Assembly: GCA_031253795.1 (NCBI GenBank)
Contig: JAIRVR010000026.1
Coordinates: 1 to 55,512, forward strand
Origin: Burkholderiaceae bacterium
Lineage (GTDB): Bacteria > Pseudomonadota > Gammaproteobacteria > Burkholderiales > Burkholderiaceae_C
Direction: 5' to 3'
Length of the DNA: 55,512 nt
Position 1 is the stretch's first letter, and every line of letters starts with the position of its first letter. The position numbers were made by a program, and so were the translations under genes. The notes under the pieces were generated by a model. The model was given only the letters and a program-made list of their open reading frames with translations. It was not told the DNA's origin and ran no database searches. Positions 1-18,217 of the stretch are shown here, in pieces.

Positions 1-585
1 TTCTGGCGCACCGGCACGCTGTGGTCGGTGGAGAACTTCGGCGTCAAGCCCGACGTGCTGGTCTTCGCCAAGGCGCTGACCAACGGCCTCAACGCCCTGT
101 CGGGCCTGTGGGCGCGCGAAGAGCTGATCAACCCCACCATCTTCCCGCCGGGATCCACGCACTCCACCTTCGCCTCCAACCCGCTGGGCACGGCCCTGGG
201 CCTGGAAGTCATGAAGATGACCCACGAGATGGACTTCGGCCGCCAGGTCCGCGAATCGGGCGCCTACTTCCTCGAAGGCCTCAAGGAGCTGCAAAAGCGC
301 CACAAGGAAATCGGCGATGTGGACGGCCTGGGCCTGGCCCTGCGCGCCGAGATCTGCACCGACGACGGCTTCACGCCCAACAAGGCCCTGCTGGACAAGA
401 TGGTGGACATCGGCCTCGAAGGCGGTCTGGAGTACCAGGGCAGCAAGCGCGGCCTGGTGCTGGACGTGGGCGGCTACTACAAGAACGTGATCACCTTCGC
501 GCCCTCGCTGATGATCTCGCGCCCCGAGATCGACGAGGCCATGGTGCTGCTCGACCAGTTGCTCACGAAGGCAAAGGCCGCCTGA
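1..585 (+). CDS. Class III PLP-dependent aminotransferase, C-terminal part (5' end outside window)
   Basis: The reading frame is open from base 1, so the gene starts upstream of the window. The 194 visible residues carry the class III (ornithine/diaminobutyrate/GABA type) PLP-lysine segment PDVLVFAKALTNG, followed by the conserved STFASNPLGTALGLEVM helix region and the small C-terminal domain. Family members move an amino group between an omega- or alpha-amino donor and a keto acid or aldehyde in the cytoplasm. The stop is only 4 bp before the start of the next gene, an N-acyltransferase, so the two are very probably co-transcribed with the arginase-fold and methyltransferase genes. Substrate is unknown. 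The assignment to the class is firm; whether it feeds the putative lipid/export cluster is inference. Confidence 0.85.
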   Translation, partial: FWRTGTLWSVENFGVKPDVLVFAKALTNGLNALSGLWAREELINPTIFPPGSTHSTFASNPLGTALGLEVMKMTHEMDFGRQVRESGAYFLEGLKELQKRHKEIGDVDGLGLALRAEICTDDGFTPNKALLDKMVDIGLEGGLEYQGSKRGLVLDVGGYYKNVITFAPSLMISRPEIDEAMVLLDQLLTKAKAA

Positions 586-589
586 AGGC

Positions 590-1666
590 GTGATGCCCCC
601 GGACCGTCTGCACAACCAGCTCGAACCCCGGGGCCTGCTCGCGCAGTTCGAGGCCCATCCTCCCGAGGGCTTCGGCCTGCTGCGCGGCTGGCCGGCGCCG
701 GCCTTCACGGCGCCGTTCGATCTCCTGACCACGGCGGACGACGCGCTCAAGGCGCGTCTTTCGGCCATGCCGGGCGGCGCCTGGCTGTCGCGCCGGCTGC
801 GCCTGTCCACCGATTTCGTGGGCACGACGGTCAGCGAGTACGCCGTGCTGCCCCAAGGCCCTTCGCCCGCCGGGCAGGCCGCGGCGCTGCGCGCCTGCGC
901 AGGCCGGCGCATGCTGACCATCGTCAAGGACCTGCCCCAGGATTCGCCGCTGCTGCCGGCCGCGGACAACGCCCATGCCCGGGAACTGGCACAGGCCCTG
1001 CAGGCGGCGGGCTTCATCCTGGTCGAGGGCCAGGCCCTGGCCTACGTGCCCATCGATTTCTCCAGCCTCGACGACTACCTCGCCCGCCTGTCCAAAAGCC
1101 GGCGCCAGAACCTGCGGCGCAAGCTGCGCAGCCGGGCGCAGCTGCAGGTGCAGCGCGTCCCGACGGGCGCGGCCTATGCCGAGGATGCGCGCGTCGATGC
1201 CTGCTACGCCCTGTTCGATGCGGTGTACGCGCAAAGCGAAATCCATTTCGACAGGCTCACGCGCGATTTCTTCGCGGCCCTGCTGCGCGACGCGGACAAC
1301 GGCGGCGTGGTGTTCGAGTACCGCGCCCTGGATGCGGAAGGTGTGCCCGGCGACCTGCTGGGCTGGAACCTGTGCTTCGAGCACGATGGCAAGCTCATCG
1401 ACAAGTACATCGGCCTGTCCTATCCGGCCGCGCGCGAGGCCAATCTCTATTTCGTGAGCTGGATGGTCAACCTCGAGTACGCCATCGAGCGCGGCCTGTC
1501 GCACTATGTGGCCGGCTGGACCGACCCCGAGGTCAAGGCCCAGCTGGGCGCCAGCTTCACCTTCACGCAGCACGCGGTCTTCATCCGCAACCCCCTGCTG
1601 CGTGCCCTGGGCCGACGCTTTGCCGGCCATTTCGAAAGCGATCGCCAATGGAGCGAACAGAACTGA
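590..1666 (+). CDS. FemAB/GNAT-like N-acyltransferase
   Basis: This 358-residue soluble protein has a central segment around residues 150-185, YLARLSKSRRQNLRRKLR, typical of the FemAB-like / Acetyltransf_6 branch of N-acyltransferases (COG3146-like). A C-terminal stretch (LIDKYIGLSYPAAREANLYF) belongs to the acyl-donor-binding half of the fold. Such enzymes transfer an acyl or aminoacyl group to an amine. The start is GTG at 590 followed directly by ATG at 593; either is possible, with AAGGCG just upstream. It follows the aminotransferase by 4 bp and overlaps the next gene by 19 bp, so translation is likely coupled. No signal peptide is visible. Acceptor and donor are unknown; an amine made by the neighbouring aminotransferase would be a natural acceptor (inference). 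Confidence 0.7.
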   Translation: MMPPDRLHNQLEPRGLLAQFEAHPPEGFGLLRGWPAPAFTAPFDLLTTADDALKARLSAMPGGAWLSRRLRLSTDFVGTTVSEYAVLPQGPSPAGQAAALRACAGRRMLTIVKDLPQDSPLLPAADNAHARELAQALQAAGFILVEGQALAYVPIDFSSLDDYLARLSKSRRQNLRRKLRSRAQLQVQRVPTGAAYAEDARVDACYALFDAVYAQSEIHFDRLTRDFFAALLRDADNGGVVFEYRALDAEGVPGDLLGWNLCFEHDGKLIDKYIGLSYPAAREANLYFVSWMVNLEYAIERGLSHYVAGWTDPEVKAQLGASFTFTQHAVFIRNPLLRALGRRFAGHFESDRQWSEQN

Positions 1667-2553
1667 ATCCCGTGGTGCTGGATGTGGACGGCTCGGTCGG
1701 CCCGCTGACCGGCGAGCTGCGCCTGCCGCTGCAGCACTGGCAGGAGCAGGTGCGCTTCGGCTGCGGCCTGCGCCGCTTCGCGCGCTTTCGCGCGGCGCTC
1801 GATGCCCTGATGCCGGCAACCCACGGCACGGCCCTGATTGGCAGCGGTGACTTCCACCACCTGAGCTGGCCCCTGATCGAGCGCTGCATCGAGGCCCGAG
1901 CCCTGTCGGCAGGCCGGCCGCTGCGCGTGGTCGTGCTCGACAACCACCCCGACAACATGCGCTTTCCCTGGGGCGTGCACTGCGGTTCCTGGGTGCGCCG
2001 CGTGGCCCTGCATCCGGCCGTCTCGCATGTGCACGTGGCCGGCATCACCTCGAACGACATAGGCCGCGGCCACGCCTGGGAAAACTACCTGACCCCGCTG
2101 CGCGCAGGGCGGCTGAGCTACTGGAGCGCAGGCGTGGACACGGCCTGGGCGCAGCGCCTGGGCGTGGAGGCGGCCTTCCGCAGCTTTGCCAGCGTGGCCG
2201 ATCTTTCGCGCACCCTGGCCCGCATGCTGCACGAGCAGCCCCAGCCCACCTATCTGAGCATAGACAAGGACGTGTTCGCGCCCGAGGTGGTGCGCACCAA
2301 CTGGGACCAGGGCCGCATGCAGGAGGAGGAAGCCGTGGACATCATCGCCGCGCTGACCGGCCAGATCGTGGGCAGCGACATCACGGGCGACGTATCCTCG
2401 TGGCGATACACCACCTGGTGGAAGCGCTGGATGAGCGCGGGCGACGGCCAGGACACGCAGATCGACGCCAAGACCCTGGCATGCTGGCAGCTGGGCCAGC
2501 ATGCCTTCAACGAAAGACTGCTGGAGCACATCGCCACCCACAGCAGCACATAA
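1648..2553 (+). CDS. Arginase/ureohydrolase-fold protein with divergent metal motifs
   Basis: A 301-residue protein resembling the arginase/agmatinase/formiminoglutamase superfamily. The three metal-ligand regions can be aligned but are unusual: GSGDFHHLS replaces GGDHS, LDNHPDNM replaces the DAHxD motif, and SIDKDVFAP replaces SxDxDxxDP. The Asp/His ligands needed for a binuclear metal site are largely kept, so a C-N hydrolase acting on a guanidino, amidino or amide group is plausible, but arginase activity itself should not be assumed. The start ATG at 1648 lies inside the end of the upstream gene (19-bp overlap), typical of translational coupling. It sits between an N-acyltransferase and a cyclopropane-synthase-like methyltransferase. 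Confidence 0.65.
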   Translation: MERTELNPVVLDVDGSVGPLTGELRLPLQHWQEQVRFGCGLRRFARFRAALDALMPATHGTALIGSGDFHHLSWPLIERCIEARALSAGRPLRVVVLDNHPDNMRFPWGVHCGSWVRRVALHPAVSHVHVAGITSNDIGRGHAWENYLTPLRAGRLSYWSAGVDTAWAQRLGVEAAFRSFASVADLSRTLARMLHEQPQPTYLSIDKDVFAPEVVRTNWDQGRMQEEEAVDIIAALTGQIVGSDITGDVSSWRYTTWWKRWMSAGDGQDTQIDAKTLACWQLGQHAFNERLLEHIATHSST

Positions 2554-2601
2554 GACCCCACGCCCGCGCAGCGCGGCGGACCGAACGACAGGAGACACAC
2601 C

Positions 2602-3927
2602 ATGATCGACCGGCTGACCGAAAACCTGCTGCAGCGCAGCTTCACCCCGCTGGTGCGCGAGGGCCGGCTGGAGATCGGCCTGCCCTGGGGACGCACGCTG
2701 TGCTTCGGCGATGGCGGACTGCCCCAGGCGCGCCTGCGCTTCACGGACCGGCGCGCCCTGTGGGCCGTGATGCGCGATCCGGACCTGAACTTCGGCGAGA
2801 TGTTCATGCAGCAGCGCCTGTGCGTGGAGCAGGGCAGCATCTACGACGTGCTGGAGCTGCTGCTGCGCGGTGCCCGGGATGTGCCCGTATCCGCCAGCGT
2901 GCGCCTGCTGGATTCCTGGCGCATGCGCCTGAAGCCGCTGCTGCAGCACAACCTGCGCGGCAGGTCCCGCGCCAACGTGGCCCACCATTACGATCTGGAC
3001 GACCGGCTCTACGCCCTGTTCCTCGACGCGGAGCGCCAGTACTCCTGCGCCTACTTCGAGCAGGGCGACGAAAGCCTGGAGCAGGCGCAGCGCGCCAAGA
3101 TGCGCCATATCGCCGCCAAGCTGCTGGTCGATCCCGGCCACAGCGTGCTCGACATAGGCTGCGGCTGGGGCGGGCTGTCGCGCTATCTGGCCGAGGTGGC
3201 CCAGGCCGGCCATGTCACGGGCATCACCCTGTCGCAGGAACAGTTCGCCGGCGCGCGCGGACGCGCCGGCGCATCGCCCGCAGCGGACCGGCTGGAATAC
3301 CGGCTGCAGGACTACCGCGACACCCGGGGCCGCTTCGACCGCATCGTCTCCGTCGGCATGTTCGAGCATGTGGGCACACGCTTTCACGATGCCTTCTTCC
3401 GCCAGTGCAAAGAGCTGCTGGCCGACGACGGCGTGATGCTGCTGCACTTCATCGGCAACAGCGACGTGCCCGACTTCAACAACCCCTGGATCGAGCGCTA
3501 CATCTTCCCCGGCGGCCACATTCCCTCGATGTCGGAGTTCACGCCCGCCATAGAGCGCGCCGGCCTGGTGGTCACCGACATCGAGGTGCTGCGCCTGCAC
3601 TATGCGCGCACGCTGCGGCTGTGGCGCGAGCGCTTTCTCGCGCGGCGGGACGAGGCCGCACGCCTGTACGACGAGCGCTTTTGCCGCATGTGGGAGTTCT
3701 ATCTGTCCATGTCGGAAACGGCATTCCGCTACCAGGACATCGCCATCTTCCAGGTGCAGCTGGCGCGGCGCCAGGAAGCCGTGCCGCTGACACGCAGCTA
3801 TGTGGAGCAGCGCAGCCAGGCCTTGCGCGCACGGGAGGCAGGACCCGGTGCGCAGCAGCCAGGGGCCGGGCCCGGTGCCACGCCTGCGCTCAGGCCGAGG
3901 CGGACGACCGTGCCCGCAGCAGGCTGA
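2602..3927 (+). CDS. Cyclopropane-fatty-acyl-phospholipid synthase family methyltransferase
   Basis: A 441-residue SAM-dependent methyltransferase of the CFA/mycolic-acid synthase family. The N-terminal ~120 residues form the lipid-binding domain; the Rossmann methyltransferase begins near VAHHYDLDDRLY and has the SAM motif LDIGCGWGG at about residues 183-191, preceded by the family hallmark YSCAYFEQGDESLEQAQ. The family adds a methylene or methyl group to unsaturated acyl chains of membrane lipids at the inner face of the membrane. A clear ribosome site (AGGAG, 10 bp upstream) supports the start. The last ~30 residues are Pro/Ala/Gly-rich and dispensable-looking; they overlap, tail to tail, the 3' end of the DegT aminotransferase by 38 bp. 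It may be the ordinary Cfa or a cluster-specific lipid tailoring enzyme. Confidence 0.85.
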   Translation: MIDRLTENLLQRSFTPLVREGRLEIGLPWGRTLCFGDGGLPQARLRFTDRRALWAVMRDPDLNFGEMFMQQRLCVEQGSIYDVLELLLRGARDVPVSASVRLLDSWRMRLKPLLQHNLRGRSRANVAHHYDLDDRLYALFLDAERQYSCAYFEQGDESLEQAQRAKMRHIAAKLLVDPGHSVLDIGCGWGGLSRYLAEVAQAGHVTGITLSQEQFAGARGRAGASPAADRLEYRLQDYRDTRGRFDRIVSVGMFEHVGTRFHDAFFRQCKELLADDGVMLLHFIGNSDVPDFNNPWIERYIFPGGHIPSMSEFTPAIERAGLVVTDIEVLRLHYARTLRLWRERFLARRDEAARLYDERFCRMWEFYLSMSETAFRYQDIAIFQVQLARRQEAVPLTRSYVEQRSQALRAREAGPGAQQPGAGPGATPALRPRRTTVPAAG

Positions 3928-5116
3928 CCAGGGCCTCGAAGCGCAGATCGTCGAGCCAGGGGCTGTTGCCCACGGCCACCAGACGCTGCGCCCAGTCGCG
4001 CGCCCGTGCCACACCGTCCTGGCGCGCCAGGCCCAGCACATGGTCGTAGCGCCCATAGTCGGGCAGCACATGGACGAAGGGCAGGGACAGGCCCCAGCCC
4101 TGCCCCCACTGCGCGGCCAGCAGGGCATCGCGCGCCTTCGCGCTGGCCAGCCTCAGCAGCAGCACGGGCCAGACGCCCCGGGCGCCGGCCACGGCATCGC
4201 CCACCACCTCCACGCCTTCGATGGCCTGCAGGCGGGCGCAGCGGCGCAGGGCCCGGTCGGCCCCCGCCTGCTGGAAGTCCGCCAGCCGCCGCAGCGCGCG
4301 GCGGCCCACGCGGCGGCGCCAGGCGCCGAGCTCATGGCGCGGTATGGCATCGTCGAAATCATCGCCCGCAGCCTCCACCCAATCGCCGCGCTTCAGCGCG
4401 GCGCGCAGCGGCCGGCCATAGGCCAGGCCCAGGCCCCCAGGCCGGTACAGGGCGGCATAGCCCAGCAGTTCCAGGCTGCGGCGCAACTCCCAGCCTGCAT
4501 CCTGGCGCACGCTGGCTGCATGGGTGTCTCGAAGCGCCTGGCGCAACACCGGGTCGCGGGCCAGCAGCACTCCGCCTTCGAACGTGGTCAGGCCCTTGCC
4601 CACGGCCAGGCTGTAAAAGCCCACATCGCCCTGCCAGCCCACGGGCTGGCCTCCAACGCGCGCACCCAGGGCCTGGGCCGCATCCTCGACCACCCAGGCG
4701 CCCACGGCACGTGCGCAGACCAGGGCCGTGCCCACATCGGCCACGCGCCCGCACAAATGCGTGGGCAGCACGGCCAGGGTGCGCTCTGTGCACAGGGATT
4801 GCAAATGGGCGGGGTCCATGTCCAGCGCATCGGGCCGCAGGTCGCACAGGCGCAGCTGCAGACCGCACTGGGCGATGGCCAGTGCCACCAACGGGCAGGT
4901 GTAGGCAGGGGCGACCACCTCGCCACGGCCCGGCGCCAGCCGGCGCAGGGTGTCCAGCGCCACCATCAGCGCCGAGGTGCCCGAGCATTCCAACTGTACG
5001 GCCGGCACGCCCAGCCATGACGCCAGGGCCCCCGCCAGATCGGCACTGCCCCAGGGCAGCAGATCGGCCGCGCGCAGCGGCAGACCTGCCGTGGGCGGCA
5101 GCATGCGTTCAGCCAT
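3890..5116 (-). CDS. DegT/DnrJ/EryC1/StrS-family (ArnB-like) aminotransferase
   Basis: About 408 residues if ATG 5116 is used (alternatives at 5131 and 5197). Typical fold-type I sugar-aminotransferase features are seen: SGTSALMVALDTL near the N terminus, PAYTCPLVALAI, the PLP-contacting Asp in VVEDAAQALGA, and the PLP lysine in SLAVGKGLTTFEGG (about residue 174 from the 5116 start). The family transaminates keto-sugars, often on nucleotide or lipid carriers, as ArnB does for UDP-4-keto-arabinose. The start overlaps the end of the preceding EamA gene by 8 bp, and it is the last gene of the nine-gene minus operon. The pairing with two half-size EamA transporters recalls arnB/arnE/arnF, but no arnC, arnA or arnT homologue lies in the window. 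Confidence 0.8.
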   Translation of the reverse strand: MAERMLPPTAGLPLRAADLLPWGSADLAGALASWLGVPAVQLECSGTSALMVALDTLRRLAPGRGEVVAPAYTCPLVALAIAQCGLQLRLCDLRPDALDMDPAHLQSLCTERTLAVLPTHLCGRVADVGTALVCARAVGAWVVEDAAQALGARVGGQPVGWQGDVGFYSLAVGKGLTTFEGGVLLARDPVLRQALRDTHAASVRQDAGWELRRSLELLGYAALYRPGGLGLAYGRPLRAALKRGDWVEAAGDDFDDAIPRHELGAWRRRVGRRALRRLADFQQAGADRALRRCARLQAIEGVEVVGDAVAGARGVWPVLLLRLASAKARDALLAAQWGQGWGLSLPFVHVLPDYGRYDHVLGLARQDGVARARDWAQRLVAVGNSPWLDDLRFEALVSLLRARSSASA

Positions 5117-5603
5117 GGCGGGCCGGGGCATCGGGCGAGGCCGCCAGATGGGCCGCGCCCGCGCTGGCCGACCCTGCGCCGGGATGGCCGCCGGCATGGC
5201 CTGGCGCGTCGCCGCCCGTGCCGTCGGCCGCAGCCTCCTGTGTTTCGCTGACGGCCAGGCAACCTATGCCGGCGACGATGAACAGGCAGCCGATGATCTG
5301 GGGCCAGCCTATCTGCTCGTTGAACAGCCAGTAGGACAGGGCCAGGACGGACAGGATTTCCAGGTGCGATGCCGCGAAGGCCGGCCCTATGGGTGCGCGC
5401 TTGAGCAGGGTCATCCAGGAAAAGAAGGCACCGATATAGCCCACGAAGGCACCGTAGATCCAGGGCTGGCCGAAGACGCGCGCCAGCCAGTCCACCGAGA
5501 ACTCCAGCGGCAGCGCCGCGTTGCCGGCCTGCTTGAAACTGAGCTGGGCCAGGGTATCGAAGGCCATGAGCACCAGAAAACCAATGACGTAAAAACGCTT
5601 CAT
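5109..5603 (-). CDS. EamA/SMR-type half-size transporter (ArnE/F-like) 1
   Basis: A 164-residue integral membrane protein with four hydrophobic segments (roughly residues 4-20, 48-66, 72-92, 96-116), the size and layout of drug/metabolite-transporter half proteins such as EmrE or ArnE/ArnF. Residues after about 118 form a hydrophilic Gly/Ala/His/Pro-rich tail that is not part of the usual fold; its coding end overlaps the start of the DegT gene. A second half-size protein of the same kind lies immediately upstream in the operon, so the two probably form a heterodimer, as ArnE and ArnF do when they flip undecaprenyl-phosphate-aminoarabinose. A flippase role for an amino-modified lipid is inference from this context. 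Confidence 0.75.
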   Translation of the reverse strand: MKRFYVIGFLVLMAFDTLAQLSFKQAGNAALPLEFSVDWLARVFGQPWIYGAFVGYIGAFFSWMTLLKRAPIGPAFAASHLEILSVLALSYWLFNEQIGWPQIIGCLFIVAGIGCLAVSETQEAAADGTGGDAPGHAGGHPGAGSASAGAAHLAASPDAPARHG

Positions 5604-5662
5604 CTCAATGATCCATTACGCCACGCCATCCACTGGGCCGAAGCGGCCGGGACGGCCTGCCC

Positions 5663-6031
5663 TCAATGCAAACCCACCACGGCCACGCCGATGGACACCA
5701 GCACGATGCCGGCCACGCGCATGGGTGCCAGCTTTTCACGGAACAGCAGGCGGCCCGCAATCATGATGGCCACGATGTTGATCGACCCCAGCAGCACGCC
5801 TTCCGACAGCGGCACCAGGGACAGAAAGGCCAGCCACAGCACGAACTCGGCCACATAGCAGCCCACGCCCAGCCAGAGCCAGGGGCGTGCCGCCATGAAG
5901 CGCCAGCGCGCCAGGCCATCGAGCTCGCCGGGCTCGCTGGCCGCGGCCTTGAAGGCCAGCTGGCCGCCGCTGTCGACCAGCACATTGAGCACCCACAGCA
6001 CGATGACCAGCGGCGAAAGCTCACTGCCCAT
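5663..6031 (-). CDS. EamA/SMR-type half-size transporter (ArnE/F-like) 2
   Basis: A 122-residue, four-helix membrane protein. It starts MGSELSPLVIVLWVLNVLVD, has the motif GQLAFKAAA in the first helix region, and ends with two helices including LLGSINIVAIMIAGRLLFREKL, typical of the SMR/EamA half-transporters. Its start overlaps the end of the serine hydrolase gene by 11 bp, and 59 bp separate it from the second half-transporter. Length and topology match ArnE/ArnF and paired SMR proteins. Substrate is unknown; the two proteins differ enough in sequence to be fixed-orientation partners rather than duplicates. Confidence 0.75.
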   Translation of the reverse strand: MGSELSPLVIVLWVLNVLVDSGGQLAFKAAASEPGELDGLARWRFMAARPWLWLGVGCYVAEFVLWLAFLSLVPLSEGVLLGSINIVAIMIAGRLLFREKLAPMRVAGIVLVSIGVAVVGLH

Positions 6032-6983
6032 GCGCCACGGCCTCCCGGGTCTGGCGGCCGCGCGGCGCCGCCGTGCTGGCGATGCGGGCGACGAATTCCG
6101 TCATGCGTGCGATGACGGTGCGCCGGTCGCGGTCGATGGTGATCATGTGGTAGCTGTTGTCCAGCAGCACCAGCTCGACATGGGCCTGGGTGGCGCCATG
6201 CACGATGTCATGGGCGTTGCCCACCGAGGAGATGTCGTCGTGGCGCGCATGGATGACCAGGCAGGGAGAACGCAGCTGGGACAGGCGCGACAGCACATGG
6301 GCCGACAGCCGGCGCAGCTCGATGATGGTCCACCAGGGGTTGCCGGGCAGGCCCGCGGCCGCGCTGTCCCCCGAGTGCATCTGCTCGACCACCCGAGCGC
6401 GCAGGGCCTCGTCCTTGATGCCGTAGGGCGGCTGCTCCATGAACACGCTGCGCCGGCCTATGCCCAGGGCGCGGAACAGGGGCAGCAAAAAGGCCAGGCG
6501 TGTGTAGAAGGGGATGCTCCAGCCGTCGTAGCGGAAGGTGGTGGACAGGGAGCAGACCCCGTCGACCTTGTCGGGATGGCGTTCGGCCACGGCCAGGGAC
6601 AGCACGGCGCCCATGGACAGGCCGCCGACCACCACATGGTCCATGTGGCGGGACAGGCGCTGCAGCCCGGCCTCCACGCTGGCCAGCCAGTCAGGCCAGC
6701 GCGTATCCACCAGGTCTTCCATGCTGCCGCAATGGCCGGCCAGTTGCACCGCATAGACAGTGAAGCCCTGCTTGTTCAGGCCCTTGGCCAGCAGGCGCAT
6801 TTCGGCGGGCGTGCCCGTCATGCCATGGACCAGGAGCACGCCGGTGCGCGCGGCCGCGCCCGTGCCCGGCATGACGAACTCATTCTCGGTCACGCAGATG
6901 CCGGCCAGCGCCTGTTCATCGATGCCCGCCGCGTCGGCCGGCTCGCTGCGCTGCACGGCCTCGAATCCGTCTGCCAGGTTCAT
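6021..6983 (-). CDS. Alpha/beta-hydrolase (carboxylesterase/lipase-like)
   Basis: A 320-residue alpha/beta-hydrolase. The oxyanion-hole region is LLVHGMTGTP (residues 50-59), the nucleophile elbow is GGLSMG with Ser123, and the likely acid and base are Asp249/250 in HARHDD and His279 in NSYHM. This arrangement matches monoacylglycerol-lipase/carboxylesterase proteins acting on acyl esters or thioesters. No signal peptide is seen, so it is probably cytoplasmic. The start ATG 6983 overlaps the stop of the HAD phosphatase gene (ATGA overlap at 6980-6983), and its own end overlaps the next transporter gene. Placement among lipid/export genes suggests acyl editing or chain release, which is inference. 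Confidence 0.8.
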   Translation of the reverse strand: MNLADGFEAVQRSEPADAAGIDEQALAGICVTENEFVMPGTGAAARTGVLLVHGMTGTPAEMRLLAKGLNKQGFTVYAVQLAGHCGSMEDLVDTRWPDWLASVEAGLQRLSRHMDHVVVGGLSMGAVLSLAVAERHPDKVDGVCSLSTTFRYDGWSIPFYTRLAFLLPLFRALGIGRRSVFMEQPPYGIKDEALRARVVEQMHSGDSAAAGLPGNPWWTIIELRRLSAHVLSRLSQLRSPCLVIHARHDDISSVGNAHDIVHGATQAHVELVLLDNSYHMITIDRDRRTVIARMTEFVARIASTAAPRGRQTREAVAHGQ

Positions 6984-7684
6984 GCGGCCACCTCCAGCCC
7001 CAAAACCACCTTGTCGAGCAGGCACGTGGCCTGGGCAAAGGACTCGAAGGGCGCATGGGCGATGCCCTGGCTTTCGCAGTGGGCGATGAGCTTGTACTTG
7101 GCCAGCACGAAGTCGGCACGGCCCGAGACGCAGAAGTCCGAAGTGCTGTCGCCCACGTAGAGCACGCGCCCGTGCACGTTCTGCTGCTCGGCCAGCCGCT
7201 CGCACTTGCAGTTGCCGCTGGCACGCGCGCAGCGCGCGCTGGCCCAGGGCGACTCCAGGCGCCAGCTGCGCTCGCCGGTCTGCACCAGGCGGTTGGCGAT
7301 GACCTCCAGGTGGCTCAGCCCGTGGCGGGCCAGCACATGGCGGATGGCGTAGTCGATGCCGTCGCTGACCACCTGCACCACCATGCCATGGGCCTGGGCG
7401 GCGGCCACGAAGCCCGCAAAGCCCGGGTCGATGGCGATCGTGTCCAGGTGCTCGCGCAGCTCGGCCTCGTCCATGTCCAGCAGGGCCACCTGGCCCTTCA
7501 TGCATTCGCGCGAGCCGATCTCACCGCGCTCCCAAGCATCCTCCAGCGCCTGCCAGCCCGGCTTGCCGAAGCGGTTGAGCAGGGTATCGGTCACGTCCAG
7601 CACGCTGATCGTGCCGTCGAAATCGCTTTGCACCATCCAGCCGGGTGCGGAGGTGTCCAGATAGAGGGGAATGCGCTTATTCAT
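6980..7684 (-). CDS. MtnX-like HAD-IB family phosphatase
   Basis: A 234-residue HAD-superfamily phosphatase. Motif I is DFDGTI (Asp21 nucleophile, Asp23), motif II is VVSDG with Ser107, and motif IV is GDSTSDF (Asp179, Asp183). A cysteine cluster, SGNCKC around residues 156-161, resembles the Cys-rich insert of MtnX-like proteins. MtnX itself dephosphorylates a methionine-salvage intermediate, but no methionine-salvage genes accompany this copy; the operon instead carries export and amino-transfer genes. Removal of phosphate from a lipid or sugar precursor is therefore as plausible. It overlaps both neighbours (8 bp with the adaptor gene, 4 bp with the hydrolase gene). Confidence 0.75.
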   Translation of the reverse strand: MNKRIPLYLDTSAPGWMVQSDFDGTISVLDVTDTLLNRFGKPGWQALEDAWERGEIGSRECMKGQVALLDMDEAELREHLDTIAIDPGFAGFVAAAQAHGMVVQVVSDGIDYAIRHVLARHGLSHLEVIANRLVQTGERSWRLESPWASARCARASGNCKCERLAEQQNVHGRVLYVGDSTSDFCVSGRADFVLAKYKLIAHCESQGIAHAPFESFAQATCLLDKVVLGLEVAA

Positions 7685-8666
7685 GGAATTGCACCCTTAC
7701 GTTCTGGCCCACGCGCACGGCGGCGGCGGGGGCCTGGTCGAAAGCCAGCACGCATTCGATGACGCGCACCGGTCCACGCTGCTGGTCGTCCTGCAGCCGC
7801 GCCGTGCCATAGACGGGGCTGATGCGCAGCACGCGCGCCGAAGGCAGCTGCTGGGGCGCAGCGCCATCGGCGTCCAGCGTCACCGTGGCCTGCATGCCTT
7901 CGCGCACGGCGGCCGCGAAGCTTTCATTGATTTCGGCGCGCACCTGCAGCGGCCGCTGGGGCAGCAGCACCACGGCTGGCGTGCCCGCCACGGCCTGGCT
8001 GCCCACATGGGTGGCCAGGCGCACCACGGTGCCGGCCTCGGGGGCACGCAGCTCCTGGCGCTTGTGCTGGGCGCGCAGCTGTTCCAGCTTGCTCTGGGCC
8101 ACCTGGGCCTCGGCCGCGGCCACGTCGATCTCGGCCTGGGCATCGCGCAGGGCCTGCGCCGCCTCGTCCACACCCTGGGCATCGGCCGCGCCATCGCGCG
8201 CAGCGGCCTGCCAGCGCGCCAGGGTCTGCCTGAGCTGGGGCAGACGCGCGGCGCGCGCCTTCTGGCGTGCCTTGGCCAATTGCGCCTCGGACTCGGCCAC
8301 GGCCAACTCGGCGCGCAGCTGGTCGTCTGCCAGGCGCAGCAGCAGCTGGCCACGCTGCACGGACTGGCCTTCCTTGACGGCCAGCTGGTGCACCGTACCG
8401 GCCACGGACGGCGACAAATCGAGCAGGCCGCCTTCGACCTCGATCTTGCCGCGCGCCACGGCCACCGTGCCCGCCGGCTGCGACCGGGACCCCGTAGCCG
8501 CGCCCGCCGCATTGGCGGACGCATCGTGCGAAGGTCCGCAGCCCGCCAGCAGCGCGGCCACGGCCACGGCAGCCAGCAGGGCGGCCGGCGTACGGGCGGC
8601 CGGCGTACGGGCAGCCGGCGCCGGACCTGCGGGGCAAGCGGCGAAGCCGCTCAGGGGGTGCTTCAT
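7677..8666 (-). CDS. HlyD/DevB-family periplasmic adaptor lipoprotein of ABC exporter
   Basis: A 329-residue membrane-fusion protein. After a long N-terminal region comes a lipoprotein signal ending VAALLAGC (lipobox, Cys about residue 43), then a lipoyl-like half (GGLLDLSPSVAGTVHQLAVK), a long alpha-helical hairpin rich in Ala/Gln/Arg (about residues 110-210), the second lipoyl half (LRAPEAGTVVRLATHVG) and beta-barrel domains. Such adaptors link an inner-membrane ABC transporter to TolC; the partners are the next three genes upstream. The extra-long signal-peptide n-region is encoded by a 15-bp tandem repeat and by a palindromic element also found downstream of pckG, so the true N terminus may be shorter or the element may have inserted into the gene. 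Confidence 0.85.
   Translation of the reverse strand: MKHPLSGFAACPAGPAPAARTPAARTPAALLAAVAVAALLAGCGPSHDASANAAGAATGSRSQPAGTVAVARGKIEVEGGLLDLSPSVAGTVHQLAVKEGQSVQRGQLLLRLADDQLRAELAVAESEAQLAKARQKARAARLPQLRQTLARWQAAARDGAADAQGVDEAAQALRDAQAEIDVAAAEAQVAQSKLEQLRAQHKRQELRAPEAGTVVRLATHVGSQAVAGTPAVVLLPQRPLQVRAEINESFAAAVREGMQATVTLDADGAAPQQLPSARVLRISPVYGTARLQDDQQRGPVRVIECVLAFDQAPAAAVRVGQNVRVQFHE
8581..8620. repeat. 15-bp tandem repeat (2.7 copies) in adaptor signal-peptide region
   Basis: The unit gcggccggcgtacgg occurs exactly at 8581-8595 and 8596-8610 and is followed by a partial third copy at 8611-8620 with one change. Read on the minus strand it encodes PAART twice and then PAA just before the hydrophobic core of the lipoprotein signal peptide. 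Being in phase with the codons, copy-number change would alter only n-region length. Confidence 0.85.
8637..8658. repeat. Palindromic REP-like core inside adaptor gene
   Basis: The minus-strand 22-mer reads CCCCCTGAGCGGCTTCGCCG followed by CT and contains the hairpin AGCGGC-ttc-GCCGCT. It matches the 22 bp directly after the pckG stop (24239-24260) at 21 of 22 positions. Here it encodes residues PLSGFAA near the N terminus of the lipoprotein adaptor. Elements of this look are commonly intergenic in Comamonadaceae (recollection, not checked), so a coding location is unusual. Confidence 0.6.
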
Positions 8667-8671
8667 TTTCT

Positions 8672-9409
8672 TTATTCCTTGATCGTGGCCGACTGGCGCC
8701 AGTCGCTGCGGATGGCGCCGTCCTCCATGCCCAGCACGCGGTCGGCATGGCGCACCAGACGCGGGTCATGGCTGACGCACAGCACCGTCGTGCCGTGGTT
8801 GCGTGCCGCGCGGTGCAGGATGTCGATGACGCGCTGGCCGCTCTCGGCGTCCAGCGCACTCGTGGGTTCGTCGGCGAACAGCAGCTGGGGCGCCTTGGCC
8901 ATGGCCCGGGCAATGGCCACGCGCTGCTTTTCGCCGCCTGACAGTTCGGCCGGCCGCATATGGGCGCGGTGGGACAGGCCCACCTCGTCCAGGGCCTGCT
9001 GGGCGCGGCGCAGGGTTTCGGCACTGCGCAGGCCCATGTAGCCCAGAGGCAGCTGCACCTGCTCCAGCGCCGTGAGCGCGGGAAACAGGTTGAAGCCCTG
9101 AAAAACAAAGCCCGTGTGGCGCAGGCGGAACTTCTCCAGCGCGCGCGTGCCCAGCTTGGCCAGGTCCTCGCCCAGTGCCACGGCATGGCCGCTGTCGGGA
9201 GCCTGCAGGCCCGACATCAGGGACAGCAGCGTGCTCTTGCCGCAGCCCGATGGACCGGAGATGAGACTGAGTTCGCCCGGGTACAGGGTCACGGACAGGC
9301 CTTGCAGCACCTGCACGCGCACCATGCCGGACAGAAAGGACTTGCACAGGCGCACCGCTTCGAGGCTGGGTGCGGGACGGGCGCTGGAGGGCAGGTTCAT
9401 GGCGTTCAT
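8672..9409 (-). CDS. ABC transporter ATPase (DevA/LolD/MacB-type)
   Basis: A 245-residue ATPase with Walker A GPSGCGKST (residues 52-60), Q-loop in FVFQGFNLFPAL, signature LSGGEKQRVAIARAM (from residue 156), Walker B LLFADEPTSALD (Asp180/Glu181) and switch His214 in CVSHD. This is the subfamily that drives FtsX-like permeases (LolCD, MacB, DevCA), consistent with the permease gene 9 bp upstream in transcription and the adaptor gene 5 bp downstream. Start is ATG 9409 or the in-frame ATG three codons later. It powers export of a hydrophobic or envelope substrate through the adaptor and TolC-like protein. Confidence 0.9.
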   Translation of the reverse strand: MNAMNLPSSARPAPSLEAVRLCKSFLSGMVRVQVLQGLSVTLYPGELSLISGPSGCGKSTLLSLMSGLQAPDSGHAVALGEDLAKLGTRALEKFRLRHTGFVFQGFNLFPALTALEQVQLPLGYMGLRSAETLRRAQQALDEVGLSHRAHMRPAELSGGEKQRVAIARAMAKAPQLLFADEPTSALDAESGQRVIDILHRAARNHGTTVLCVSHDPRLVRHADRVLGMEDGAIRSDWRQSATIKE

Positions 9410-9418
9410 GGCGGCCCC

Positions 9419-10564
9419 TCAGCGCAGCAGGGTGGCCGGATCGGCGCGCAGCAGGCTGCGCATGGCGCCCAGGCCCGACAGCAGGGACAGCACGGCCACC
9501 AGCACGCCGCAGGCGACGATGGCCGACGTATTCAGCGCCACGGGAACGCGGTAGGCCGTGGCCAGGCTGAGCAGCACGGCGCTGGCCGCGCCGGCCAGCA
9601 CAAAGCCCAGGCCGCCGATCCAGCAGGCCTGCTCCACCACCACGCGGCCCAGGGCCGCGCGGCTCACGCCCAGGGCGTTGAGCACGGCGTATTCACGCGA
9701 GGAGGCCGCCACCACGGCCTTGAGCGACTGGCTGGTGACCACCGAGCCCACGAGGCAGACGATGAGGGCCATGAACAGCACGCCGGCGCCGGCGCCGGTG
9801 TCGAACATCCAGTAGCGCTGGGAACGGCGTGCGAACTCCTTGGCCGTCCAGGCCTCATGGGGGCCGAAGCTGGCCGTGGGCTGATTCAGGCGCTGCTTGA
9901 CGGCCTTGCGCGAGGCACCCTCGCGCACGCGCGCCACGAAATAGGTACTGCCCTGGGACAGATCGACGCCGCCGATTTCGCGCGCCGTCGCCAGCGAGGC
10001 CAGCACGTTCACCCCCCCCAGGCCGCGCAGGCCGTCCACGGCGGCCACCACCTGCACGCGGTGGTTGTTGATCCAGGCCACGCCGCCTTCCTCCACGCCC
10101 AGCTGGTGCAGGTCGGCACGGTCCACGACGACGGCGCCCGGCTCGCGCAGGCGCAGGCGCTGCCAGGGCTGGAGCAGGCGGGCGAAGAGCAGGGCGGAGG
10201 CATCGGTGGCGATGCCCGACAGGTAGACGGACACGCCGCCGCCGGCCTCGGCGCCCACGGCACCCGAACGCCAGTCGCCATCGACCCAGACATAGGGCTC
10301 GACGGCAGCGATGTCGGGGTCGGCGCGCAGGCGCATTTCCACGTCGCGGCCGACAGTGCGGCCGAAGTTCACGCTCTGGGTGCCCGGATAGCCGACCCAG
10401 ATGTCGGCCGTGGAGGCCGTCACGTACAGCGCGGCCGAGCCGAAGATGCCCAGCACCAGGGCGGCCTGCATGGCCAGCAGCACCCCCGAAAATCCCACGG
10501 CGAACACGGAAGGGATGAACCGGCGCCACTCATGGACCAGGGTCTTGCGGGCCAGCGCGATCAC
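9419..10564 (-). CDS. FtsX-like ABC exporter permease (DevC-like)
   Basis: A 381-residue permease with one N-terminal membrane helix (about 18-40), a large periplasmic domain beginning TASTADIWVGYPGT, and three C-terminal helices (about 255-280, 310-335, 345-370). The first-helix/periplasmic layout and the motif for a 'DIWV' segment after helix 1 are like DevC of the DevBCA glycolipid exporter. The gene overlaps the TolC-like gene by 4 bp (ATGA) and precedes the ATPase by 9 bp. In heterocyst-forming cyanobacteria DevBCA-TolC exports glycolipids; applying that substrate class here is inference. Confidence 0.85.
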   Translation of the reverse strand: MIALARKTLVHEWRRFIPSVFAVGFSGVLLAMQAALVLGIFGSAALYVTASTADIWVGYPGTQSVNFGRTVGRDVEMRLRADPDIAAVEPYVWVDGDWRSGAVGAEAGGGVSVYLSGIATDASALLFARLLQPWQRLRLREPGAVVVDRADLHQLGVEEGGVAWINNHRVQVVAAVDGLRGLGGVNVLASLATAREIGGVDLSQGSTYFVARVREGASRKAVKQRLNQPTASFGPHEAWTAKEFARRSQRYWMFDTGAGAGVLFMALIVCLVGSVVTSQSLKAVVAASSREYAVLNALGVSRAALGRVVVEQACWIGGLGFVLAGAASAVLLSLATAYRVPVALNTSAIVACGVLVAVLSLLSGLGAMRSLLRADPATLLR

Positions 10565-12012
10565 GAGGCGGCCCCCTGTGCGGCGGGCACGTCACCGCCC
10601 TGCGGGGGCGCATCCTCGGGCGGCAGGGGAGCGCCGCCCAGCGCCTTGTACAGGGCCACATAGGCCAGGGCATGGGCGGCCAGGGCCGTGGTCTGCTCGC
10701 TGCGCGCCTGCAGGGCGGCACGGCGCCCTGCCAGGCCGCCGAATTCGCTGTCCAGGCCCAGCTGCAGGCGGCGCGCCTGGGCCTGTTCGCGTTGCTGCAG
10801 CAGCTGCTGCGAAGCCTGCAGCGCGGCGATCCGCTCGCGCTGGGCCGACAGGGCAGCCAGGGCCGATTCGACCTCGGCCACGCTGTCGAGCACGCTCTGG
10901 CGGTAGGCCTGCACCGAAGCCTGCAGGGCCAGCTCGCTGGCATCGGCCTGGGAGCGGCGGCGGCTCCAGTCGAACAGCGGAATGTCGATCTGCGGGCCGA
11001 AGGTGGGCGCGTTGTCCTGGGTGGTGCGCAGGTTCTGCGTGATGTTGTAGGAATACAGCAGCGAGCCGCCGATCACGAAGCGCGGGTACAGGGCAGAGCG
11101 GGCCATGCCCAGATCGGCCGCGGCACGCTCCACGCCGGCCTCGGCGATCTGGATGTCGGGCCGCGTGCGCAGCAGGTCGGCAGGCAGGGCGGCCACGGCC
11201 AGGGCGTCGGGCCCGGGCAGGGCCGCACCGGCATCGGCCTGCAGCCATTCGGAATCGGGGCGTGTGCGTCCCAGCAGGGCAGCCAGGCCATGGGCTGCGC
11301 GGGCCTGGGCCTCGCGCAGCGCGGCCTGCTGGGCCGCGATCTGGGAGGACTGCAGCCTCAGCTGCTGCACGGCCTCCAGGCTGCCCAGGCGCTGTTCGCG
11401 GCGCACTTCGGCCAGTTGCACGGCGCGCGTGTCGAGCCGGGCCTGCTCGTCGAGCAGGGCCCTCTGGCGCTGGGCCATGCGGATGTCCAGGTAGCGGTGG
11501 ACCACGTCGGCGACCAGGGCCACGCGCGCGGCCTGCAGCCGGCCGCCGGCATCGAGCACGCCGGCCGCGGCACTGCGCAGGCCGGCTTCGCGGGCTCCGA
11601 ACAGTCCGAGGTCCCAGGCCACGTCGATGCTGGCGTGGAAGTACGAGTCGATGGCCGCGATGTCCTGCAGCGTGCGTGCGCCCGCCGTCAGCACGGGCCG
11701 GTAGGCCGCATCCGCCGTACCGGCCAGCAGGCGCTGCTGTCGCAGCCGCGACTGGGCCTGCGCCAGGTCCAGGTTGGCGGCCAGGGCTTCGTCGACCAGC
11801 CGGTCCAGCGCCTCGTCGCCCCAGGCCTTCCACCATCCGCGCAGATCCGCCGTGGCGGCGCCGGGCGCCGCCACGGGCAGGGACTGGGTCCAGGTCTGCG
11901 GCACCGTGCCGTCCAGCTGTGCAGGGGCGGGCGAGGAGCAGCCGGCCAGCGCCAGGACGGCAGCCAGGCACAGGCAGGAGAGGCGGTGCGTCGCGTCGGC
12001 AGTGGTTTTCAC
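10561..12012 (-). CDS. NodT/TolC-family outer-membrane efflux lipoprotein
   Basis: An RND/ABC-type outer-membrane factor of about 483 residues. GTG 12012 gives a normal lipoprotein signal (VKTTADATHRLSCLCLAAVL then ALAGC, lipobox Cys); an in-frame ATG at 12072 would add 20 residues before it, so the GTG start is preferred, although neither has a good ribosome site. Two OEP repeats of long Ala/Gln/Arg-rich helices are evident, with the conserved LRTRPDIQIAEAGVERAAADLG segment shortened here to its start. It is the promoter-proximal gene of the nine-gene operon and its 3' end overlaps the permease. Divergent to a BaeR/AdeR-like regulator with shared repeats in the spacer. Confidence 0.85.
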   Translation of the reverse strand: MKTTADATHRLSCLCLAAVLALAGCSSPAPAQLDGTVPQTWTQSLPVAAPGAATADLRGWWKAWGDEALDRLVDEALAANLDLAQAQSRLRQQRLLAGTADAAYRPVLTAGARTLQDIAAIDSYFHASIDVAWDLGLFGAREAGLRSAAAGVLDAGGRLQAARVALVADVVHRYLDIRMAQRQRALLDEQARLDTRAVQLAEVRREQRLGSLEAVQQLRLQSSQIAAQQAALREAQARAAHGLAALLGRTRPDSEWLQADAGAALPGPDALAVAALPADLLRTRPDIQIAEAGVERAAADLGMARSALYPRFVIGGSLLYSYNITQNLRTTQDNAPTFGPQIDIPLFDWSRRRSQADASELALQASVQAYRQSVLDSVAEVESALAALSAQRERIAALQASQQLLQQREQAQARRLQLGLDSEFGGLAGRRAALQARSEQTTALAAHALAYVALYKALGGAPLPPEDAPPQGGDVPAAQGAAS

Positions 12013-12087
12013 AGTCGGTCGGAAGGGGCGGTGGGCAAGGAAAAAGCGGGGAACATGTCCCAAGCCTTGCATTTAAAGACAACAAGC

Positions 12088-12128
12088 TTGCGCTCGAATG
12101 CAGGCTTTATGGAGGGAATATGGAGAGC
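12088..12128 (+). promoter_or_regulatory. Copy 1 of 41-bp direct repeat, probable response-regulator box
   Basis: This segment matches 12232-12272 at 34 of 41 positions, in the same orientation. It holds ATGGAG at 12109 and 12120, exactly 11 bp apart, the spacing of OmpR/PhoB-family dimer sites. On the other strand the half-site reads CTCCAT followed by AAAGCC, which resembles the BaeR box core of E. coli (CTCCATDATTGGC, from memory). It lies just upstream of the TolC-like gene. The 12013-12368 spacer holds only these two boxes and probable promoters. Confidence 0.6.
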
Positions 12129-12231
12129 ATCCCCCTGTCGCGTGCCCGCCCGGACGCCCCGCCAGGCAGCGCGCCGGCGGAATGGGACTGCTGCCCCTCC
12201 GCAAAAACCCGGGGATTGGACTGCCACTGTC

Positions 12232-12272
12232 TTGCGCCAGATTGCAGGCTTCATGGAGCGAATATGGAGGCC
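12232..12272 (+). promoter_or_regulatory. Copy 2 of 41-bp direct repeat, probable response-regulator box
   Basis: Second copy, with ATGGAG at 12253 and 12264 (11 bp apart). It ends next to the expected -35 position of a CATAAT -10-like hexamer at 12295-12300 that would serve the response-regulator gene; the -35 itself is poor, as expected for an activator-dependent promoter. Autoregulation by the two-component system is the natural reading. Confidence 0.55.
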
Positions 12273-12368
12273 TGCAGCGCGGCGGCCATCGCCCCATAAT
12301 GCGTTTTTGACGCCATGCGGTGCGGCCCGACAATGCCGGCCGGCCATGGCCTTGCCGGCTTTTGCGCC

Positions 12369-13094
12369 ATGAATTCCTCTGTACAGCCAACGACAACCAC
12401 ACCCCTGGTGCTCGTCGTCGAAGACGAGCCCGGCATCGCCAGCATACTGACGGCCTACCTGGAGCGCGACGGGCTGCGCACACGCCTGGCCCAGGACGGC
12501 CAGGAGGCCGTGCAGCTGTTCCGCCAGCTGCGCCCCGACCTCGTGCTGCTGGACATCCACCTGCCCGGCATGGACGGCATCGACGTGCTGCGCGCCATCC
12601 GCGACGAGGGCCAGACGCCCGTCATCATGGTCACGGCCCTGGCCGACGATGTGGACAAGTTGCTGGCCCTGCGCCTGGGCGCCGACGACTACGTGGTCAA
12701 GCCCTTCAATCCGCCCGAGGTCGTGGCGCGCGTGCGCGCCGTGCTGCGCCGCACCCAGGCGCGCAAGAGCCCGGCGCCCGCCCCCATCCGCGTGGGCCCC
12801 ATCGAGATCGACGCCGAAGCCCACAGCGCCGTCGTCTACGACGACGCGGGCCGCTCCATGCCCCTGCCGCTGACCCTGACCGAATTCCGCCTGCTGGCCT
12901 GCCTGGCTGCCCAGCCCCGGCGCTGCTTCTCGCGCGCCCACCTGATCGAGCACTGCCTGCCGGAAAGCGATGCGCTGGAGCGCGTCATCGACTCCCACCT
13001 GTCCAAGCTGCGCCGCAAGCTGCAGCTGGCCGGCCAGGAGGGATTGATCGAAACCGTGCGCGGCATAGGCTACCGGCTATGGCCCTGGGACTGA
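12369..13094 (+). CDS. OmpR-family response regulator (BaeR/AdeR-like)
   Basis: A 241-residue regulator: receiver domain with acidic pocket Glu18-Asp19, phospho-acceptor Asp62 (VLLDIHLPGMDG), Thr89 and Lys111 (DDYVVKPFNPPEV), then a winged-helix DNA-binding domain (residues ~140-238; LTLTEFRLLACLA, LRRKLQ, GIGYRLWP). The ADDVDKLLALRLGADDYVVK stretch is characteristic of BaeR/AdeR. ATG 12369 puts the receiver near the N terminus; an upstream in-frame ATG at 12315 would add 18 residues. It is divergent from the export operon and overlaps the kinase gene by 16 bp. It probably binds the two 41-bp repeats. Confidence 0.9.
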   Translation: MNSSVQPTTTTPLVLVVEDEPGIASILTAYLERDGLRTRLAQDGQEAVQLFRQLRPDLVLLDIHLPGMDGIDVLRAIRDEGQTPVIMVTALADDVDKLLALRLGADDYVVKPFNPPEVVARVRAVLRRTQARKSPAPAPIRVGPIEIDAEAHSAVVYDDAGRSMPLPLTLTEFRLLACLAAQPRRCFSRAHLIEHCLPESDALERVIDSHLSKLRRKLQLAGQEGLIETVRGIGYRLWPWD

Positions 13095-14257
13095 GCTTCA
13101 ACCGCATCTGGGTGCGCTTCGGCCTGTGGATCACGGCCACCGTGCTCAGCACCATCGCCCTGCTGGCCATCGGCGTGCTGGTGTTTTCCGAAATCCAGTA
13201 CCGGGATTTCTACAGCAGCCTGCCACCGGCCGTGCAGGTCGAGCTGGACCAGCTCAACGCGCAGTCGCTGGAAGACAGTCCGCGCGCCATGGAAATCTAT
13301 GGCCAGTACTGGACAGGCGATCTGCTGTTCGGTGAAAAATGGTCCCTGGTCATCGGCCTGCTGATCTGCCTGCCTTTCGGCCTGGCCGTGGGCTTTTGGG
13401 TGTCGCGCCTGGTCACGCGGCCGCTGGCCTCCATGGTCGAGGTGGCCAAGCGCGTGGAACAGGGCGACTTCAGCGCACGCGCCCTGCCCGGCAAGGCCCA
13501 TGGCGAGCTGGCCGAAATGGTCGAGGCCTTCAACCGCATGATCGATGCGCTGGAAACCCTGGAGGCCGAGCGCCGCGCCACGGCCGCGTCGATTTCGCAC
13601 GAGCTGCGCACACCGCTGACCGTGCTGCAGGCTCGCCTGCATGCCATCTGCGACGGCGTGATCGCGGCCGATGAAGGCGAGCTCCATGCCCTGCTGTCCC
13701 AGGTCGAGCACCTGGGCCGTCTGGTCGGCGACCTGCACACCCTGTCCATGGCCGATGCGGGGCAGCTTTCGCTGCAAAGGCAGCGCCTGGATCTGGCGGC
13801 CCTGGTGGCCGACATGCTGGACCAGCTCCACCCCCAGCTGCAGCAGCATGGCATGCAGCTGGACCTGGCCCTGCCCGCGCCCACGGATGAGGGCCTGACC
13901 GACATCCGCGCCGATGCCGACCGCATGCGCCAGATCGTCTCCAACCTGGTCAGCAATGCCATGCGCCACGCGGCCAGCGGCCAGTGGCTGGGCGTGCACC
14001 TGACGGTGGAAAGCCATGCCGGCGACCGCCCCATGGTGACGCTGCGCATCAGCGATGCCGGCCCCGGCCTGCCCAGCGAGCTGCGCGCCCACCCCTTTCA
14101 GCGTTTTGCCCAGGTGCCTGGCAAGCGCCGCCGCGAAGGCTCGGGCCTGGGCCTGTCCATCGTCCATGCCCTGACCACCTCCCAGGGCGGCAGCGTGGAC
14201 GCGGGCGACTCCACGCGCGGCGGCACCTGCTTCACGCTGCGCTTTCCCCCGGCCTGA
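13079..14257 (+). CDS. Sensor histidine kinase (BaeS/AdeS-like)
   Basis: A 392-residue inner-membrane kinase: helix 1 about residues 14-36, a short periplasmic loop of ~50 residues, helix 2 about 88-110, a HAMP domain (LVTRPLASMVEVAKRVEQGD), the phospho-accepting His174 in SISHELRTPL, and an ATPase domain with N box (IVSNLVSNAMRHA), G1 (DAGPGLP) and G2 (GSGLGLSIV). The small sensor loop suggests a membrane-near or envelope-stress signal, as in BaeS. Start ATG 13079 overlaps the regulator stop. The 3' end overlaps the convergent TetR gene by 26 bp. Confidence 0.9.
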   Translation: MALGLSFNRIWVRFGLWITATVLSTIALLAIGVLVFSEIQYRDFYSSLPPAVQVELDQLNAQSLEDSPRAMEIYGQYWTGDLLFGEKWSLVIGLLICLPFGLAVGFWVSRLVTRPLASMVEVAKRVEQGDFSARALPGKAHGELAEMVEAFNRMIDALETLEAERRATAASISHELRTPLTVLQARLHAICDGVIAADEGELHALLSQVEHLGRLVGDLHTLSMADAGQLSLQRQRLDLAALVADMLDQLHPQLQQHGMQLDLALPAPTDEGLTDIRADADRMRQIVSNLVSNAMRHAASGQWLGVHLTVESHAGDRPMVTLRISDAGPGLPSELRAHPFQRFAQVPGKRRREGSGLGLSIVHALTTSQGGSVDAGDSTRGGTCFTLRFPPA

Positions 14258-16643: not shown

Positions 16644-16681
16644 ACCCGGCACCGCACCACACAACGACAAGGAGACACAGC

Positions 16682-18205: not shown

Positions 18206-18217
18206 GGCGCGGGCCTG

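Follow-up and report, generated by a model that had tools for sequence, protein, structure and literature searches.

This locus raises the question of whether an exporter resembling DevBCA-TolC and a group of genes reminiscent of ArnB, ArnE and ArnF, packed together on one strand, belong to a single pathway and, if so, what this pathway makes. The stretch of DNA analysed (hereafter the window) covers positions 1 to 55,512 of a contig from an incomplete genome (59% complete) of a Burkholderiaceae bacterium. We see about an even chance that a block of approximately 15 genes constitutes a single regulon for making, flipping and exporting an amphiphile that bears an amine and would most likely be an amino-lipid, secreted or located in the envelope.

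The nine-gene operon announced by the original prediction was confirmed by an ORF and junction check: all nine reading frames are open, lie on the minus strand and are tightly packed; four junctions overlap, by 4, 8, 4, and 11 bp, and three leave gaps of 9, 5, and 59 bp. The names given to the genes also hold in Pfam and NCBIfam (FtsX, ABC_tran, OEP, HlyD, HAD, Hydrolase_4, EamA, DegT). On the minus strand, the order begins with four exporter genes: a NodT/TolC-type outer-membrane protein (TolC, 10561–12012; 202 against 210 bits for the NodT model), a DevC-like permease with an FtsX domain (9419–10564), an ABC ATPase of the DevA/LolD/MacB type (8672–9409), and a HlyD/DevB-like adaptor (7677–8666). 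They are followed by an MtnX-like HAD-IB phosphatase (HAD, 6980–7684), which passes the TIGR01489 subfamily cut-off (97 vs. 81.55 bits) and that of PF06888 (35.4 vs. 27 bits) but differs from MtnX proper, since its 77.3 bits are far below the 303.2 of the TIGR03333 equivalog. Next comes an alpha/beta hydrolase (Hydrolase_4, S33; 6021–6983) with no transmembrane-like segment in its hydropathy profile and no signal peptide by eye. Two half-size EamA/SMR-like membrane proteins, EamA1 (5663–6031; PF00892 27.6 bits, cut-off 28.2) and EamA2 (5109–5603; 32.7 bits, same cut-off), each have a conserved acidic residue and an invariant lysine (D20 and K28 in EamA1, D16 and K24 in EamA2), which is the acid–lysine spacing of EmrE. 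The last gene encodes a DegT/DnrJ/EryC1/StrS-family aminotransferase (DegT, 3890–5137) with a conserved K181 and an E151-D-A-A-Q motif; its start codon is uncertain (5104–5197) and it possibly overlaps EamA2. When positions 3600–12600 of the minus strand were scanned with a consensus, no sigma-70-like site was found, a negative result that is weak evidence for a possible single transcript. The grouping of the nine genes goes beyond chance, because their order and orientation recur in relatives of other genera and families.

The operon is as described, but it is only half of the system. A convergent operon (28–3927) and a two-component system (approximately 12369–14257) had been missed, and with them three core genes, which encode a class III aminotransferase, a FemAB-like protein and an arginase-like protein. 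The class III aminotransferase (AT3, plus strand, 28–585; Pfam) is represented by its C-terminal part, cut by the contig start, and its promoter is off the contig. Over this fragment, it is 98% identical to Delftia copies and 93–94% identical to those of two other genomes of the family (G142 and G147). When a full-length copy (L044:14553–15971) was compared with NCBIfam, none of the 25 best among 69 matching families reached its cut-off (best, 268 against 552 bits). The FemAB-like gene (plus strand, 590–1666; PF04339 42.8 bits, cut-off 27) encodes a 358-aa dual-GNAT-fold transferase with no transmembrane-like segment by hydropathy, whose structure model (pLDDT 90.7) has a fold closest to FemX/MprF transferases, with the streptothricin peptide synthases Sba18/Sbb17 as best match. 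The arginase-like protein (Argl, plus strand, 1651–2553; PF00491 27.6 bits, cut-off 22) shares with arginases, agmatinases and proclavaminate amidinohydrolase the ureohydrolase fold (model pLDDT 90.0), the PF00491 match and the metal ligands, which are complete and conserved (H69/H70, D97, H99, D101, D205, D207). Its top VIA match is proclavaminate amidinohydrolase, an enzyme of clavulanic acid synthesis, tied with arginases, and its identity to solved structures is 8–18% among the matches listed. The convergent operon ends with a cyclopropane-fatty-acid-synthase-like methyltransferase (CFA, plus strand, 2602–3927; PF02353 298 bits), narrowly under the NF053839 equivalog cut-off (577.4 against 600 bits). 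Beyond TolC and divergent from it lie genes for an OmpR-type, AdeR-like response regulator (plus strand, 12369–13094; Pfam/NCBIfam) and a sensor histidine kinase (plus strand, 13076–14257; HAMP, HisKA and HATPase_c in Pfam).

The conservation of this neighborhood was studied in a species-genome collection searched with a DegT alignment. The best 80 of at least 361 relatives were used, of which 63 loci have full 10-kb flanks and 17, with truncated flanks, were excluded; the counts derive from tblastn at thresholds set in the script, and gene calling by GC position yielded some false antisense ORFs. Among these 63 best loci, EamA1 and EamA2 were each found in 62, the alpha/beta hydrolase in 60, Argl in 53, the FemAB-like gene in 52, HAD in 46, and AT3 in 41. 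All seven of these core genes are present in 41 loci. The original prediction had named as its refutation a separation of the DegT/EamA/HAD genes from the exporter in most genomes; this was not seen, as 38 of the 63 best loci keep both, with three or all four exporter genes close to DegT. The exporter is nonetheless an accessory rather than a core part, because 25 of the 63 hold fewer than three exporter genes nearby (three of these retain the ATPase and adaptor only), among them all four loci of Stenotrophomonas and nine of the 10 of Dyella, two genera in which the core is complete or nearly so. CFA is likewise accessory (7 of 63 at the chosen threshold), and genes related to acyl chains, encoding ACP/KAS, CFA, desaturase or hydroxylase, recur in some lineages. 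When scores were compared across loci by Spearman concordance, the result mostly reflected phylogeny and was not used as evidence.

Co-occurrence was then examined in a same-family sample of 150 genomes, own genome counted. DegT orthologs covering most of the length occur in 11 of these genomes, and 25 more match partly (33–39%). The FemAB-like gene and Argl occupy an identical set of 12 genomes, i.e., the 11 with DegT plus G075, which has most other genes of the set and no DegT match. DevC is found in 14, namely 11 of these 12 and three genomes without FemAB/Argl (G096, G103, and G120). Nine of the ten DegT neighborhoods other than the window share its order as far as visible, and three of the nine (L034–L036) have CFA; three of the nine are split over contigs, with more genes of the set on other contigs (the AT3 of G148 left out). 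G135 is rearranged, with a haem-oxygenase-like, AMP-ligase and T_hemolysin trio between the halves and no DevC match. In a sample of 299 genomes of the phylum, Argl was found in 11, all of which also have the FemAB-like gene, itself present in 19.

The set is also carried on plasmids of Roseomonas, Xanthomonas, Bartonella, Rhizobium and Agrobacterium, and all 34 plasmid records with AT3 contain HAD as well (accession lists compared by eye). On the Agrobacterium and Rhizobium plasmids, the order is two-component system, HAD, AT3, Argl, EamA, alpha/beta hydrolase, FemAB-like, EamA. The version of Rhizobium acidisoli adds a fatty-acid desaturase and a CFA synthase, and that of A. salinitolerans is followed downstream by a four-gene exporter whose permease shares 44% and whose ATPase shares 55% identity with its counterpart in the window. 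An Aureimonas plasmid resembles them in its gene set but lacks an AT3 of this type. On Bartonella plasmids, DegT is present and the set is split, with AT3, FemAB-like and Argl genes of HY406 elsewhere on the plasmid. In the Agrobacterium, Rhizobium and Aureimonas versions, no DegT lies beside the core, and none was found in these genera when the plasmid collection was searched for DegT at 1e-25. On the basis of these versions and of G075, DegT was rejected as a core gene, and it is accessory. The presence of the same members in different layouts argues for one pathway.

A candidate regulatory site links the two operons. The intergenic region between the response regulator and TolC contains a direct repeat with an 11-bp period, CTCCATA-N4-CTCCATA (minus strand, 12108–12125), which is conserved in relatives, and a second copy whose second half-site is CTCCATG (minus strand, 12252–12269); both lie within a 39-nt duplication (12087–12125 and 12231–12269, 87% identical). 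On the TolC side, each of the 35 regions, which come from 31 distinct genomes including that of the window, matches the box at 11–14 of its 14 positions, and in no region did more than 2 of 100 single-base shuffles do equally well. Among the 46 regions upstream of AT3, L072 was too short and was left aside, 26 were at loci that had also yielded a response regulator–TolC region, and 19 were at loci that had yielded none of this type. A weight matrix built from the TolC-side sites alone finds a similar element on the same strand ahead of AT3 in the 26 paired loci, with p-values from 0 to 0.055 when 200 random 120-bp windows were drawn from each locus for comparison; the p-value does not exceed 0.02 in 19 of the 26 (17 of the 23 different genomes). 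Four genomes are present twice in the 35 regions and three in the 26 (L035/L058, L037/L064, L040/L081, L039/L071), one of which (L040/L081, p-values of 0.0 and 0.025) was counted as reaching 0.02 in the 17 of 23; with these duplicates and the relatedness of the loci, the box counts are not independent. In the other 19 AT3 regions, 8 are at 0.02 or below (L045, L046, L047, L065, L067, L114, L120, and L121, of which L045 and L046 are Delftia loci) and 11 are above; L114 alone reaches 0.02 among the Xanthomonadales loci (L088, L096, L097, L099, L109, L114, L117, and L123). Because one 11-bp-phased direct repeat precedes both operons in relatives, the two are probably one regulon. OmpR-type regulators bind phased direct repeats of such length, and the response regulator may bind this candidate box.

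These data also bear on whether the locus is merely a chance or loose neighborhood of unrelated operons. Such a reading could invoke the 22 of the 63 best loci in which one or more core genes lie farther than 10 kb off, are missing or score below threshold, but it is contradicted by the identical genome sets of the FemAB-like gene and Argl (12 of 150), the shared box and the several layouts, and we consider it extremely improbable.

The resemblance to the Arn system, from which the original prediction started, proved shallow. ArnBCADTEF, which modifies lipid A with 4-amino-4-deoxy-L-arabinose, is under two-component control, as is probably the case here, and both loci combine a DegT-family aminotransferase with two half-size EamA-type membrane proteins. 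However, the scores against the ArnB, ArnE and ArnF equivalogs are far below the cut-offs (61.7 against 631, 31 against 92, and 22.4 against 99 bits, respectively), although one Agrobacterium EamA half reaches 45.8 bits for ArnF and 42.2 bits for ArnE. Within the conserved set at the locus, neither the annotations nor the Pfam assignments include ArnA, ArnC, ArnD or ArnT. Membership in Arn was rejected for these two reasons. An Arn-like modification of lipid A could still be imagined, with DegT producing an amino sugar and the EamA pair flipping its undecaprenyl-phosphate carrier: DegT belongs to the sugar-aminotransferase superfamily, the EamA halves match ArnE/ArnF weakly, and in Roseomonas an undecaprenyl-diphosphate phosphatase gene adjoins DegT. 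Nevertheless, DegT is dispensable, as the versions examined in Agrobacterium, Rhizobium and Aureimonas do without it, and glycosyltransferases, nucleotide-sugar enzymes and an ArnT-like transferase lie outside the conserved set, which makes this explanation very unlikely.

The exporter assignment stands in part. As in DevBCA-TolC, an adaptor, an FtsX-type permease, an ATPase and a TolC-type channel are encoded in one operon, but all three Dev families of NCBIfam are under their cut-offs (DevA 222 against 295.8, DevB 52.9 against 129, and DevC 49.7 against 290.35 bits), and strict DevBCA membership was rejected. In addition, the adaptor and the channel both have lipoprotein-like N-termini by eye, and the cargo genes differ.

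The view that the locus encodes an amino-lipid export pathway is retained in so far as the unit is conserved and its content fits the flipping and export of a lipid-like product with an amine; what is lost is the Arn comparison, which was superficial. The substrates, the order of steps and the product are those that we infer from gene content. AT3 and the HAD phosphatase, plus DegT if present, would ready an amine-bearing head group, to which, in the cytoplasm, the FemAB-like dual-GNAT transferase would attach an acyl or aminoacyl group. Two hydrolases, the arginase-fold one and the alpha/beta one, might trim the intermediate. EamA1 and EamA2, as a putative heterodimeric flippase, would take the product across the inner membrane, and the TolC-DevCAB-like exporter would then take it further out. 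CFA-synthase, desaturase, hydroxylase or KAS/ACP genes may tailor or supply the acyl chain, lineage by lineage, and the two-component system would turn on both operons via the common direct repeat. The formation of serinol from DHAP by AT3 and HAD, an idea prompted by a paper on RtxA (PMC3222319), is not claimed.

Two forms of the amino-lipid pathway can be considered. In one, the FemAB-like protein would be an acyl-ACP- or acyl-CoA-dependent N-acyltransferase, like bacterial ceramide synthase, that gives a fatty-acyl amide of an amino alcohol, a tentative possibility. With bacterial ceramide synthesis, the locus has in common a PLP enzyme, a possible N-acyltransferase and, in some of its lineages, ACP; however, an enzyme of the serine palmitoyltransferase type was not seen in the conserved set, which has the class III aminotransferase and DegT instead. 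The other form would be a split MprF-like system with a tRNA-dependent route to lipids bearing ornithine, an amino acid that the genetic code does not directly supply. Here, the soluble FemAB-like enzyme would move arginine from arginyl-tRNA to a head group or lipid that AT3, HAD and partner enzymes would make, and the arginase-fold enzyme would strip urea from the attached arginine to leave conjugated ornithine; the EamA pair would flip the cationic lipid and the TolC-DevCAB-like machine would convey it toward the surface, under two-component control. The dual-GNAT synthase fold is shared with MprF/aaPGS (a likeness of fold only). In contrast with MprF/LpiA, the FemAB-like enzyme is separate, with no fused transmembrane flippase domain, and there is an extra aminotransferase, phosphatase and ureohydrolase. 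Moreover, unlike AcvB/VirJ, the hydrolase that accompanies MprF/LpiA (the subject of PMC13197417 and PMC13135905), the hydrolase here has by eye no signal peptide, which makes an AcvB-like role weak. We regard this second form, which would be a truly new mechanism, as improbable.

A different type of product, a small non-lipid secreted natural product such as a cationic amide, an antibiotic or a metal chelator, appears unlikely, albeit less so than an Arn-like modification. The EamA pair would then be an SMR-type exporter, the TolC-DevCAB-like machine a second export step and the acyl genes transient neighbors. A patchy distribution (11–12 of 150 family genomes) and plasmid carriage suit an accessory metabolite, as do the acidic residue retained in both EamA halves and the matches of the FemAB-like protein and Argl to antibiotic-pathway enzymes noted above. 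However, genes for ACP/KAS, CFA, desaturase and fatty-acid hydroxylase recur in different lineages, and no NRPS, PKS or siderophore-receptor gene is named in the annotated regions of the relatives examined.

The amino-lipid reading would describe a pathway of a known kind, for envelope or exported amino-lipids under two-component control, and it is plausible that this one is undescribed: a literature search, with preprints and most subscription papers outside its scope, found no published description of the gene set. The set is whole or largely present in Delftia, Comamonas, Acidovorax/Paracidovorax, Variovorax, Rhodanobacter, Dyella, Stenotrophomonas, Rhizobium, Agrobacterium and Roseomonas, and its core recurs across many soil, water and plant bacteria. 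Seven genes that recur in several arrangements, together with a candidate regulator site, can now be named. More generally, this pathway might account for unidentified aminolipids in the groups that carry it and, if its product is cationic, would bear on the resistance of these bacteria to membrane-active compounds.

The sequence match of the DegT aminotransferase in the window (3890-5137) to characterized proteins is restricted to its first half: the Pfam match covers positions 54-233 of 435, and the alignment by sequence with solved structures extends over only about 15-208 of 400 profile positions. The second half is kept within the enzyme's own family, yet has diverged from known sugar aminotransferases. 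The regulator box, the direct repeat CTCCATA-N4-CTCCATA between the response regulator and TolC genes, is present twice in the window as the result of a 39-nt duplication (12087-12125 and 12231-12269; copies 87% identical), and occurs as a single copy in the Delftia relative (L044).

Other genes lie within or beside the cluster in several relatives. At L043, where the cluster is rearranged, its two halves are separated by genes for a haem-oxygenase-like enzyme, an AMP-ligase, and a member of the thermostable-hemolysin family (16021-18879), and at L121 a VirJ/AcvB-family gene (PF06057; 13048-13974) adjoins the FemAB-like gene. MipA/OmpV-family genes repeatedly flank the cluster (L097, L137, L141, L153, and L156).

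Brevundimonas sp. SH203 (L067) carries a complete cluster with CFA and the exporter, 31-86% identical to the window, which was perhaps acquired through transfer between classes. The cluster is also present, in the Stenotrophomonas gene order, in a record titled Bacillus subtilis (L103, JAHREJ010000023.1); this assembly is probably contaminated or mislabelled.

Reduced versions were also identified. In L069 and L084, DegT and the EamA pair occur without other core genes within 10 kb, and in L084 a fatty-acid hydroxylase gene lies directly upstream. Diaphorobacter caeni (L059) has a DegT at 63%, but every other core gene is missing from the surrounding 10 kb; this gene is possibly a relic. Finally, in L161 and L162, half-size EamA genes adjoin distant FemAB-like genes, the rest of the set being absent there, and this pairing may represent a minimal module.
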